Origin: Candidatus Saccharibacteria bacterium 49-20
GTDB lineage: Bacteria > Patescibacteriota > Saccharimonadia > Saccharimonadales > Saccharimonadaceae
Length of the DNA stretch: 64,000 nucleotides
Reading direction: 5' to 3'
NCBI GenBank assembly: GCA_001897295.1
Contig: MKSN01000001.1
Span: 186,001 to 250,000, forward strand
The position numbers were made by a program, and so were the translations under genes. Every line of letters starts with the position of its first letter. Positions within the stretch are counted from its first letter, which is position 1. Below the pieces are notes generated by a model. The model ran no database searches. It saw only the letters and a list, made by a program, of their open reading frames with translations, and was not told the origin of the DNA. Below, one piece after another: positions 10,772-32,247 of this stretch.

Positions 10772-12148
10772 ATGCTAGATGAGCAAAAAGAAGGCCTGAC
10801 ACCGGAGACGCCCGATGTAGTTCCAGAAACTAACGAGACCGAGGCCCCTGGCCTTACTCTCTCTGACGCACCCGCTGAGGCCACGTCACAACCAGCAGTT
10901 GAGCAACCCGACGTTGAGCCAGTTGAAACTCCTAGTGCGATTGAGCCGGTGAGCGAGCCAGTGGTGACACCCGGTGAAGCAGCGCCAACTCCCGCGCAGG
11001 AAACGACAGTTCCGACTGGTGTGATTGGATCGGGTCCAACGCCTACCGAGCCAATGGTGGTAAGTACGCTTCCCCCTAAGAAGAAGCTTTCAAAAGGTGC
11101 GCTCGTAGGTATTATTTTTGCCGGCGCACTAGTGTTGCTTGGGGGTGGTACGGCGCTTGCGTATAACTTCTGGTATCAAAACCCAGATAAGGTAGTAAGC
11201 GATGCGATCGTAAACGCCATTACCGCAAAAACCGTCAGTGCAACGGGAACTGCTGAAATTAAGGCGAAAGACTACACACTGAAGATTGATGTTTCAGGCC
11301 GCAACAGCCTTGAGGCAAACTCGACATTTGCAGCAAAAGTAAGCGTAAAGGGTGACGGGTTTGACTACACGATTGACGCCGAGGCGTTGTATGGTGCCGA
11401 GGGTGATATATACCTCAAACTTAACGATGCTGAAAAACTCGCGAAATCATTCGAGGAGCAATCTGATGGCCAAGTAAGCTTCGATGTATTTGAAAGTGTC
11501 ATTAAGAAAATTGATAGCAAGTGGGTGAAAATCAGCGCCGATGATATAGGTGACTTTAGCGATGATCTAAAAGAAGCTCAGCAATGTAGCGCCGATATTT
11601 CAAAGAAGCTCGATTCAGATACTGCATTCCGCAAGCAAGTGATGGACGAAACACAAGACCTTTATAAGGAGCATCCGTTTATCGTTGTGGGCGACAAGCT
11701 CGGATCGCGCACCATTAACGGGCAAGGAAGCCTTGGCTACACGCTGACCGGTGACTCGAAAGAGGCGGATGCCTTCTTCACGGGCTTTGGCGACACAGTG
11801 CTGGGCAAGGAATTTAAAAAGTGTAACGAAGATGTGAAGTTCGAGGATATTATCAGCGACGACTTCGATAAAGAAAATAGCAGCACGAAGACCGAGGCTC
11901 AAATTTGGGTGAGTCGTTTCGGTCACTCGATCACCGAGTTCAACATGACTGCCGAAGACGATGATGCGAGCGGCTCGTTTGTGATTAACCCTGTATTTAA
12001 TAAGAATGAGGCTGTGGAAGTGCCGACTGACTTCATTCCGTTCTCTGAGTTAAAGGCGGATATCGAGAAGGCATATGAAGATGCGTATAGCTCGTACTAT
12101 AGCGACTATACCTACGAATCTGACGCGACTGCAACTGAATTTAACTAG
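10772..12148 (+). CDS. Membrane-anchored extracellular protein, unknown
   Basis: 458 residues in three parts. Residues 1-105 are disordered, rich in Pro, Glu, Thr and Val. A membrane helix covers about residues 107-130 (GALVGIIFAGALVLLGGGTALAY). An exterior domain of about 320 residues follows, with many short beta-like segments and two cysteines (QQCSAD, KKCNED) that could form a disulfide. The C-terminal tail is rich in Tyr, Ser and Asp. The layout suggests a cytoplasmic acidic tail and a surface domain similar in style to LolA/LppX-like lipid-binding folds, but I do not recognise the family. Confidence 0.78.
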   Translation: MLDEQKEGLTPETPDVVPETNETEAPGLTLSDAPAEATSQPAVEQPDVEPVETPSAIEPVSEPVVTPGEAAPTPAQETTVPTGVIGSGPTPTEPMVVSTLPPKKKLSKGALVGIIFAGALVLLGGGTALAYNFWYQNPDKVVSDAIVNAITAKTVSATGTAEIKAKDYTLKIDVSGRNSLEANSTFAAKVSVKGDGFDYTIDAEALYGAEGDIYLKLNDAEKLAKSFEEQSDGQVSFDVFESVIKKIDSKWVKISADDIGDFSDDLKEAQQCSADISKKLDSDTAFRKQVMDETQDLYKEHPFIVVGDKLGSRTINGQGSLGYTLTGDSKEADAFFTGFGDTVLGKEFKKCNEDVKFEDIISDDFDKENSSTKTEAQIWVSRFGHSITEFNMTAEDDDASGSFVINPVFNKNEAVEVPTDFIPFSELKADIEKAYEDAYSSYYSDYTYESDATATEFN

Positions 12149-12176
12149 GTATTGTACGGATTAGCTCGCCCCCTTG

Positions 12177-12264
12177 TGGTATCTCGCGTAAACGCGACAT
12201 TGCACTGCGTCGGCTCGGAAATGAATATAAATACTCATTTCGCTCACCTCCTTGTGCTATACTT
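12177..12264 (+). promoter_or_regulatory. Copy A of a duplicated structured element, upstream of leuS
   Basis: This 88-bp stretch recurs at 32129-32216 on the other strand, upstream of the aquaporin gene. On the strand opposite leuS it starts AAGTATAGCACAAGGAGG, identical in both copies, and ends GCGAGATACCA, also identical. GTGCAATGTCGC is shared in the middle. Two hairpins differ in sequence but stay paired: a 10-bp stem at 12219-12242 and TCGCG/CGCGA at 12183-12196. The leuS-proximal edge contains the extended -10 TGCTATACT (TATACT 12258-12263). It may be an upstream regulatory element or a structured transcript; see the findings. Confidence 0.75.
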
Positions 12265-12272
12265 ACTCTGTT

Positions 12273-14699
12273 ATGAGGCGATATAATCCGGCAGAAATTG
12301 AACCCAAATGGCAAAAAATTTGGGAAGAGCAGCAAGCATTTGCTGCGATTGATAATGATCCTAAACCAAAGACCTATGTGTCTCCAATGTTTCCGTACCC
12401 AAGTGGCGCGGGTATGCACACAGGGCACGCCTTCGAGCACTCGATCGTTGACGCGATTGCACGCTTTTATCGTCAGCACGGTCACAATGTGCTCAACCCA
12501 ATGGGATGGGATGCATTCGGGCTTCCAACTGAAAACTACGCAATTAAAACTGGAACCTCGCCCGTAGAGGCGACTGAAACATTTATCGCAAACTTCAAGC
12601 GCCAGATTAAGCGCATTGGCTCGAGCATTGACTGGGCCCGTGAAATTAACACCAGCGATCCTGAATATTACAAATGGACACAGTGGATTTTCACTGAATT
12701 CTATAAGCGTGGGCTCGCATATCAAAAGGAAGCCCTCCAGTGGTGGTGTCCTGTCGACAAGACCGTCCTTGCGAACGAGCAAGTAGAGGGTGGCCACTGT
12801 TGGCGCTGTGGTTCGTTGGTTGAGAAGAAATCAATGAAGCAGTGGTTCTTTAAGATTACCGACTATGCAGATGCACTGCTTGATGAAATTGAAGATCTTG
12901 ATTGGCCACAAAAAATTAAGACCGCGCAAACGAACTGGATTGGGCGTTCTGTAGGTGCCGAGATTCAATTCAAGGTGACTGATTCTGAGGATGTAATTAC
13001 TGTATTCTCAACTCGTCCTGACACTATTTTTGGTGCAACCTTTGTGGTGCTTGCGCCCGAAAACACACTTTCTATGAAGCTTGCAACGGGTGACTTTAAA
13101 GAAGCGACTGAGGCATACATTAAGGACGCGGTGAAGAAATCTGAAATCGAACGCACTAATGACACGAAAGAGAAGACGGGTGTCTTCACAGGTTCTTATG
13201 CCGTAAACCCACTGACAGGTGAAAACGTACCTGTTTGGGTGGCGGATTATGTTCTTGGTGGGTATGGCACTGGCGCAGTAATGGCCGTACCCGCGCACGA
13301 CGAACGAGACTTTGCGTTTGCCGAGAAGTACAACCTACCAATTGTTGAAGTAGTTGAAAAGCCCGAGGGAGCCGAAGAGCAAGTCTTCCATGGTGAAGGT
13401 GTACTTGTGAATTCTGGTGAGTTCGATGGCCTTGCAGCGAGTGACGCCCGCGAAAAGATTGTTGAGTGGCTTGAAAGCGAAAGGCTTGGTGCGGCAAAAA
13501 CTACCTACAAAATGCGCGACTGGCTGATTAGCCGCCAGCGCTATTGGGGTGCGCCAATTCCGATTATTCACTGTGATGAACACGGTGCAGTTGCGGTCCC
13601 TGAAGACCAGCTTCCTGTCGTGCTTCCTGAAGTTGAAGACTTTGCACCGAAGGGCGATGGCCAATCTACTTTGGCGCACGCAACCGAATGGGTAAATACA
13701 ACCTGTCCTGAGTGTGGCAAACCTGCAAAGCGCGAGACCGACACAATGGACGGCTATGCATGTTCAAGCTGGTACTTGCTTCGCTATGCAGATCCAAACA
13801 ATAGCGGTGCCGTCTGGGATCCTGCAAAGGTGAACTACTGGAGTCCAACCGACTTTTACGTTGGTGGAGACCACGCGGTGGCGCACTTGCTCTACGTTCG
13901 TTTCTGGTCACACGTCTTTAACGACATGGGCTTGGTTGATTTTAAAGAACCGGTCAAGAAATTGGTCTATCACGGCTACATTAACGCCGAAGACGGCACG
14001 AAGATGAGTAAGAGTAAGGGTAACGTGATTGACCCACTCGATATTATCGACCAAGGGTATGGCGCCGATGCATTGCGCACCTACCTTCTGTTTATGGGTC
14101 CAATCGAGCTCGACGCAAGCTGGGATTCGCACGGTATCGCCGGTATTTACCGCTTCCTGAACCGTGTCTGGGTATTGGTGCAGCAATACGATGCTGCTAA
14201 AAAAGAATTTACCGGCAACGATGACGCGATTCGCGTCGCACAGCACAAGACCGTGCGCAAAGTAACTGATGATATTCGTCGGCTTAGTTTCAACACTGCG
14301 ATTGCGGGCCTTATGGAATTCGTAAACGACTTATATAAGTTTAAGATTGATGGGTACTCGAAAGAAGTTTGGGCTGAAGCCCTAGGTGCGCTCGTGCAGA
14401 TGATCGAACCATTTGCGCCACACATAGCAAACGAACTTTGGGAGCAACTCGGTCACGAAGGGCTCGTGCAAAATGCGACATGGCCAGTATGGGACGAAGC
14501 GTTGACTGTTGAAGACGTGATTACTATCGCGGTTCAGGTGAACGGCAAGCTTCGCGGTGAAATTCAGGTTGGAAAAGATACCGACCCTGAAGAAATCAAG
14601 GCGAAGGCTTTGGCGCACGAAAATGTTGCGCGCTTCGTGACGGGTGAGCCGAAGAAGGTGATTTATGTACCTGGCCGACTTGTAAGCGTGGTTGTCTAA
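12273..14699 (+). CDS. leuS: Leucyl-tRNA synthetase
   Basis: 808 residues. This is a class I synthetase with YPSGAGMHTGH (HIGH motif) near residue 40-50, a CP1 editing domain (TIFGATFVVLAPE, GTGAVMAVPAHDERD), DWLISRQRYWG, KMSKSKGN near residue 580, and an anticodon-binding C-terminus. Cysteine pairs in the WWCPVDK/CWRC and TCPEC segments remain, so zinc sites are not lost everywhere in this genome. The ATG at 12273 is 9 nt after TATACT and has no ribosome site. It is preceded by the duplicated element. Confidence 0.97.
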   Translation: MRRYNPAEIEPKWQKIWEEQQAFAAIDNDPKPKTYVSPMFPYPSGAGMHTGHAFEHSIVDAIARFYRQHGHNVLNPMGWDAFGLPTENYAIKTGTSPVEATETFIANFKRQIKRIGSSIDWAREINTSDPEYYKWTQWIFTEFYKRGLAYQKEALQWWCPVDKTVLANEQVEGGHCWRCGSLVEKKSMKQWFFKITDYADALLDEIEDLDWPQKIKTAQTNWIGRSVGAEIQFKVTDSEDVITVFSTRPDTIFGATFVVLAPENTLSMKLATGDFKEATEAYIKDAVKKSEIERTNDTKEKTGVFTGSYAVNPLTGENVPVWVADYVLGGYGTGAVMAVPAHDERDFAFAEKYNLPIVEVVEKPEGAEEQVFHGEGVLVNSGEFDGLAASDAREKIVEWLESERLGAAKTTYKMRDWLISRQRYWGAPIPIIHCDEHGAVAVPEDQLPVVLPEVEDFAPKGDGQSTLAHATEWVNTTCPECGKPAKRETDTMDGYACSSWYLLRYADPNNSGAVWDPAKVNYWSPTDFYVGGDHAVAHLLYVRFWSHVFNDMGLVDFKEPVKKLVYHGYINAEDGTKMSKSKGNVIDPLDIIDQGYGADALRTYLLFMGPIELDASWDSHGIAGIYRFLNRVWVLVQQYDAAKKEFTGNDDAIRVAQHKTVRKVTDDIRRLSFNTAIAGLMEFVNDLYKFKIDGYSKEVWAEALGALVQMIEPFAPHIANELWEQLGHEGLVQNATWPVWDEALTVEDVITIAVQVNGKLRGEIQVGKDTDPEEIKAKALAHENVARFVTGEPKKVIYVPGRLVSVVV

Positions 14700-32128: not shown

Positions 32129-32216
32129 AAGTATAGCACAAGGAGGCGAGCGAAAAGCATAGTGTCTATGCTTTTCAGAGGTGACGCGGTGCAATGTCGC
32201 CGTAGGCGAGATACCA
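32129..32216 (-). promoter_or_regulatory. Copy B of the duplicated structured element, upstream of the aquaporin gene
   Basis: The same 88-bp element as at 12177-12264, in the same relation to its gene: its aquaporin-proximal edge contains the extended -10 TGCTATACT. Hairpin 1 is GAAAAGCATAG/CTATGCTTTTC (11 bp, 32152-32176) and hairpin 2 TCGCC/GGCGA (32197-32209). In both stems the bases differ from copy A but pairing is kept. Its CCTCCTT could pair with the AAGGAGG site of the aquaporin gene if transcribed through. The divergent gene at 32248 has its own TGCTATACT at 32233-32241. Confidence 0.75.
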
Positions 32217-32247
32217 TAAGTATAAAGAGGGGTGCTATACTACAAGT

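Follow-up and report, generated by a model that had tools for sequence, protein, structure and literature searches.

A Saccharibacterial family of tiny non-coding DNA hairpins, apparently undescribed so far and probably mobile, inserted at pre-existing control sites

The window analyzed here, a stretch of 64,000 nucleotides, carries two 88-bp repeats, one upstream of leuS and one upstream of an aquaporin-type gene. We consider it probable, with roughly three chances in four, that each of them is a mobile DNA element of some 75–80 bp, non-autonomous and inserted at a short target site. In the window, this target would be the extended -10 of a promoter that was already present, and a copy of the target would have been left on the far side of the element. 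Comparison of related genomes revealed a family of such elements, which have a paired structure, were inserted at pre-existing sites, are dispersed within genomes and come with target copies. These elements are apparently a so far undescribed Saccharibacterial family of tiny non-coding mobile DNA hairpins, as a literature search limited to open-access papers found no description of them.

Both copies were found at 12177–12264 (read on the minus strand) and 32129–32216 (plus strand), where the first-pass annotation had placed them, and the sequence blocks that it quoted are common to the two. A whole-genome search with one copy recovered the other at 81% identity (E = 5e-17) and, at 641 kb, a third one. 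Six copies of the genus were used to build a covariance model, which detected four strong copies (92–102 bits) in the complete genome of the organism (904,897 bp) and a fifth, weaker copy at 664.5 kb that precedes a tRNA gene; within the window, the two 88-bp copies were the only high-scoring sequences. The -10 TGCTATACT indeed forms the conserved edge in the leuS copy and in the aquaporin copy. The features of both loci, with the basis of each assignment, are as follows.

12174–12183, plus strand: leuS copy, degraded far-side target copy TTGTGGTATC (compare TTGTGCTATA at 12252–12261); sequence and empty sites of sister species
12184–12197, plus strand: leuS copy, hairpin b (TCGCG/CGCGA); six-copy pairing test
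12200–12205, plus strand: leuS copy, left strand of the P1 stem, TTGCAC; P1 covariation in 110 elements
12206–12218, plus strand: leuS copy, 5′ core TGCGTCGGCTCGG; family conservation
12219–12240, plus strand: leuS copy, variable hairpin H2; six-copy pairing test
12241–12253, plus strand: leuS copy, 3′ core CGCTCACCTCCTT; family conservation
12254–12263, plus strand: leuS copy, right strand of P1, GTGCTA, overlapping the pre-existing extended -10 TGCTATACT; bare -10 in sister species
12273–14699, plus strand: leuS, leucyl-tRNA synthetase; Pfam PF13603 and PF00133
31246–32097, minus strand: aquaporin-type gene (major intrinsic protein, MIP); Pfam PF00230
32130–32139, minus strand: aquaporin copy, extended -10 TGCTATACT and right strand of P1, GTGCTA; sequence, and the same layout as at leuS
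32140–32152, minus strand: aquaporin copy, 3′ core CGCTCGCCTCCTT; shared blocks and family conservation
32153–32175, minus strand: aquaporin copy, variable hairpin H2 (AAAAGCATAG/CTATGCTTTT); six-copy pairing test
32176–32188, minus strand: aquaporin copy, 5′ core CGCGTCACCTCTG; shared blocks and family conservation
32189–32194, minus strand: aquaporin copy, left strand of P1, TTGCAC; P1 covariation
32197–32209, minus strand: aquaporin copy, hairpin b (TCGCC/GGCGA); six-copy pairing test
32210–32221, minus strand: aquaporin copy, degraded far-side target copy ACTTATGGTATC; sequence, and analogy with leuS and ftsE

The ends of the elements are uncertain by a few bases. In the leuS copy, the left strand of P1 can pair with 12254–12259 or, partly, with the far-side target copy. 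Upstream of this copy lies a 458-aa frame without Pfam match (10772–12148), and the element starts about 25–29 bp past its stop.

Along the direction of the gene, the order is the degraded target copy, hairpin b, the left strand of P1, the 5′ core TGCGTCGNCTCGG, H2, the 3′ core CRCTCGYCTCCTN and, overlapping the extended -10 TGYTATAMT, the right strand of P1; the 3′ side of the family reads CNCTCNNNTC(C/G)TN. The conserved core closes the variable H2 (mostly 22–27 nt overall, range 18–32), and is itself closed by P1, a locus-specific stem of 6 bp. It had been claimed that the hairpins differ in sequence and yet remain paired. This held in the six copies of the genus, in which 88.8% of the cells were paired vs 78.5% after shuffling, and 9 pairs had changed on both sides; none of 500 shuffles and no slid version attained this. 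Pairs 1–6 of P1, examined in 110 non-redundant elements, were Watson-Crick in 79–91% of the cases, vs 30–43% with shuffled partners, and comprised several kinds of pairs. Covariation was also found within a 3-bp helix formed by the two core strands, at its middle pair (62% vs 27%). The core pair was G-C in 98 and C-G in 11 of these elements, but it entered the detection score just as H2 entered the detection rule, and neither is independent evidence in this set; the evidence for H2 pairing is the six-copy test. The first pair of the stem is A-T in about 95% of the copies, and most of them carry CGTC or CCTC within the 5′ core, away from the foot of the stem, a motif that the search pattern favored. 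On the G-rich strand, the TC/TC mismatches that face each other read GA/GA, and could form tandem G.A pairs.

Empty sites bear on the origin of the -10. At leuS, the element is present in the genome studied here, and a bare -10 occupies the same place in the 14 sister loci that could be read, such as TCTGCTATACTATCTCTGTTATG in genome G007. At ftsE, this genome and G013 carry it, and the sites of 14 others are bare, of the type TTATGCTATACT. Of 30 homologues of a third, small gene without assigned function, 28 show a bare -10 and 2 contain the element, further filled copies being found beyond these homologues in G001, G002 and G013. Since sister species display a bare -10 at all three genes, the -10 preceded the element, and the idea that the element had brought it was abandoned on this comparison. 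The third gene (G000:C1:640871–641299, homologues L256–L285) encodes MQPEN.../MEPK... proteins without Pfam match; it is a recurrent insertion site, and its promoter TTATGCTATAATTACAGATATG is strongly conserved across the family. More generally, all 36 copies scored as promoter class abut an extended -10, an ATG follows 3–45 nt further on in 33 of them, and none of the 36 has a -35 at the usual distance with a match above 3 of 6. The direct repeats of this class are imperfect, and a longest-common-substring test of target duplication is weak here because all -10 boxes are alike; the empty sites were used instead. The downstream genes would have kept their extended -10 and lost their native upstream promoter DNA. 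The copies inherited at ftsE and at the third gene have changed in sequence and kept their hairpin pairing across related species, which could also mean that a function was retained. The window copies have diverged, and need not be active.

Promoters are one kind of target among several. At the start of a 16S gene, the element is flanked on both sides by ATCAAACTCTCC, and at a heat-shock operator by GTCAAGAGTGC; we take these sites, from their sequences, to be of rRNA and CIRCE type. In three loci (L040, L054, L061), the element interrupts a 5S rRNA-like sequence, L054 and L061 having also a separate uninterrupted 5S-like stretch nearby, and in L040 a run of 5-base TTCTG repeats (CTGTT phase) lies beside the interrupted sequence (minus strand, about 1305–1385). 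The 5′ ends of tRNA genes also served as sites (L031, L019, L294). Of 38 elements tested in gut lineages, 33 follow the 3′ end of a tRNA, and their orientation is always the same. At least 10 nt of the 3′ end of that very tRNA recur on the far side of 28 of these 33, a rate which fell to 0.1% with tRNAs of another isotype as a control. Counted from CCA, this copy measured 16–20 nt (n = 27) and exactly 18 nt in 18 cases; the 18-nt border coincides with the edge of the T-stem region and also with the length of a retroviral primer-binding site. Gut loci such as L142, L146, L169, L206, L213 and L218 contain post-tRNA units, for many isotypes, in which a terminator-like hairpin and the element are joined by 18 nt copied from the 3′ end of the tRNA that precedes them. 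Direct repeats thus accompany the element at the 16S start, the operator, 5S and tRNA ends.

The element was detected in 124 of 295 genomes of the family Saccharimonadaceae and in 34 of its 61 genera (E ≤ 0.01), with up to 11 matches per genome among the matches listed. Tandem arrays are present, and the multi-copy loci seen are head to tail. Matches at E ≤ 1e-4 were obtained in 9 of 380 genomes across the phylum, four of which do not belong to the family; of three of these four (L293 being left aside), L290 and L294 look genuine and L295 does not. An exact pattern searched in 84,980 species genomes matched almost only in Saccharibacteria. Matches labelled otherwise at L150, L176, L177 and L198, as well as those at L186 and L220, were discarded as chance-like occurrences in other sequence, and the match at L222, labelled Nomurabacteria, looks genuine. 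Viral contigs gave no exact match to this pattern. Neither a lack of further copies nor a loss of pairing in the hairpin arms, the two outcomes named beforehand as speaking against the annotation, was observed: more copies were found, and their pairing was kept. Copies located at unrelated loci of the same genome, G090 or G057, agree at 74–78 of 79–80 positions, with flanks at noise level. The first-pass annotation had proposed, as one of two options, a small mobile element bearing a promoter. Its mobility is supported by the empty sites, the dispersed near-identical copies and the target copies; a promoter of its own is not supported, the -10 being already at the target.

We searched the same 295 genomes for Y1 transposases, reverse transcriptases and tyrosine recombinases, and none of the three accounts for the distribution of the element. 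It occurs in 24 of 50 Y1-positive genomes vs 124 of 295 overall (P = 0.35). The association with reverse transcriptase is weak (Fisher P = 0.06), and the enzyme was detected in 2 of the 15 genomes rich in the element. The genome studied here encodes one reverse transcriptase, no Y1 (PF01797) and one tyrosine recombinase, presumably the housekeeping Xer. G066 and G114, two near-complete genomes rich in the element, each encode a single tyrosine recombinase and neither Y1 nor reverse transcriptase, and in some incomplete element-rich genomes no tyrosine recombinase was found. Two copies lying 1.3 kb apart in G057 (contig C4) were considered as ends of an autonomous transposon and rejected, as the frame between them resembles a housekeeping gene (tilS-like, from its SGGVDS motif) rather than a transposase. 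We suppose that the element would be recognized by a recombinase when one of its DNA strands is folded by itself, perhaps the G-rich strand with tandem G.A pairs around the covarying 3-bp helix, and that this recombinase might be the Xer-type enzyme of the host or be supplied in trans. A broader proposal appears rather unlikely to us: a distinct class of mobile elements without recognizable transposase of their own, addressed to the promoter -10, the tRNA T-arm, rRNA ends and CIRCE as control sites, using folded-DNA arms matched to each locus or, for the tRNA class, tRNA-primed copying that leaves an 18-nt copy resembling a primer site.

The compensatory changes in two hairpins and the strong family-wide covariation would also be expected of a cis-regulatory or small structured RNA common to leuS and the aquaporin gene, the other option of the first-pass annotation. 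Selection on an RNA strand should produce more G.U than A.C in the reading of that strand. The counts of G.T vs A.C, taken on the C-rich strand, were 18 vs 24 in P1 pairs 1–6, 12 vs 16 in hairpin b, 4 vs 15 in the middle helix and 46 vs 33 in H2, for which the detector admitted G.T; pair 7 of P1, located within the -10 box, is an exception (32 vs 12). There is no consistent excess overall, and the middle helix leans toward the G-rich strand. Because wobble pairs favor neither strand consistently, the pairing pattern favors hairpins that would form at the DNA level rather than in RNA. Moreover, the promoter-class element lies upstream of the -10 and is thus absent from the transcript of the gene, it stands in either relation to tRNA and rRNA genes among many unrelated kinds of sites, and it is absent from sister species. 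Covariance-model matches to Rfam 15 in the window and six family loci were limited to tRNA and tmRNA. We therefore hold the RNA explanation to be highly improbable: within these tests, the family consists of short hairpin elements whose choice of targets is unusual, and is not an RNA regulator. The suggested pairing of CCTCCTT with AAGGAGG in the aquaporin copy is unsupported, because CCTCCTT sits upstream of the -10 and outside an mRNA begun there.

A formerly mobile DNA module that has become regulatory, for instance a hairpin or cruciform tuning the opening of the -10 with supercoiling, would agree with the constant position at extended -10s close to an ATG, with the poor -35 matches and with the pairing kept in same-gene copies of related species. 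The target genes, however, share no function, presence is patchy, and template switching between inverted repeats can also maintain pairing, so that we regard this module as improbable. An attC-like cassette site read as folded single-stranded DNA by a tyrosine recombinase, with arrays built by repeated insertion at the same site, is also unlikely in our opinion. The imperfect hairpin, its variable apical part, the unpaired core positions, the tandem arrays with a common repeat and the tRNA ends as targets speak for it; against it stand short units without open reading frames, a single tyrosine recombinase, presumably of Xer type, in the own and element-rich genomes (none found in some incomplete ones), and the lack of a conserved GTT/AAC arm box in the aligned set, by inspection. 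Finally, the tRNA class could have spread via a tRNA-primed RNA copy, the far-side repeat being the primer-binding site. The repeat does start at the complement of CCA (TGG) and has its sharp 18-nt length, but this border is also the T-stem edge, the promoter class has no such sequence, and reverse transcriptase is weakly associated; we judge this route very unlikely. Insertion of a mobile DNA hairpin remains our preferred reading for both window copies.

Although the genomes of Saccharibacteria are very small, members of this family have entered promoter cores as well as tRNA ends and rRNA genes in a large number of lineages. Natural insertions which can be compared with their empty sites offer material on how a recombinase could read structure instead of sequence. 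Also, the element can be tested as a source of promoter variation in bacteria in which manipulation is difficult, and the sharp 18-nt tRNA copy is an unusual mechanistic clue.

Several known systems resemble this family in part. The rtT repeats after E. coli tyrT follow a tRNA gene, each with part of the tRNA 3′ end, whereas our element follows many isotypes in many species and is bound to one structured core. It shares with integron attC sites an imperfect hairpin and arrays, but has neither their GTT/AAC boxes nor cassettes, and no extra integrase was found. Like the GTAG REPs of the REP/RAYT system (REPtron), thought to be moved by a Y1 HUH enzyme, it is a folded-DNA repeat; it lacks the GTAG foot, and Y1 is neither associated with it nor present in its own genome. 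Correia elements and other promoter-bearing MITEs are likewise short non-autonomous elements just upstream of genes, but Correia elements bring their own promoters (PMC10969869), whereas here the -10 pre-existed and the outermost ends do not look like simple terminal inverted repeats. DDE-type MITEs would have such repeats at their outermost ends together with a target duplication; our element has target copies, and its ends are asymmetric owing to hairpin b. No DDE transposon was noticed in the loci examined. Among published groups, the CGTC-tagged REPs come nearest, a superfamily which includes Neisseria dRS3 and Rickettsia RPE-4/6. These carry a CGTC, TGTC or CCTC tag at one end of a hairpin with a stem of 8–9 bp, a loop of 4–5 and A-T as first and second pairs, followed by a short unpaired tail, mostly CCA; they form predominantly head-to-head dimers, have no dedicated transposase, and some families lie inside other palindromes (PMC3733652). 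Our element is similarly short, palindromic and dispersed, with no associated transposase, and its CGTC or CCTC motif and the A-T at the base of its stem may correspond to theirs. However, this motif lies 7–8 bases from the stem, its stems are often longer than 8–9 bp, it lacks the CCA tail, a second covarying stem closes its core, and its copies are single or head to tail at defined control sites; no short CGTC-type forms of 16–43 nt were present in the family loci examined. Because stem placement, tail and array form differ, we did not assign it to the CGTC-tagged REPs, but it may work in a similar way.
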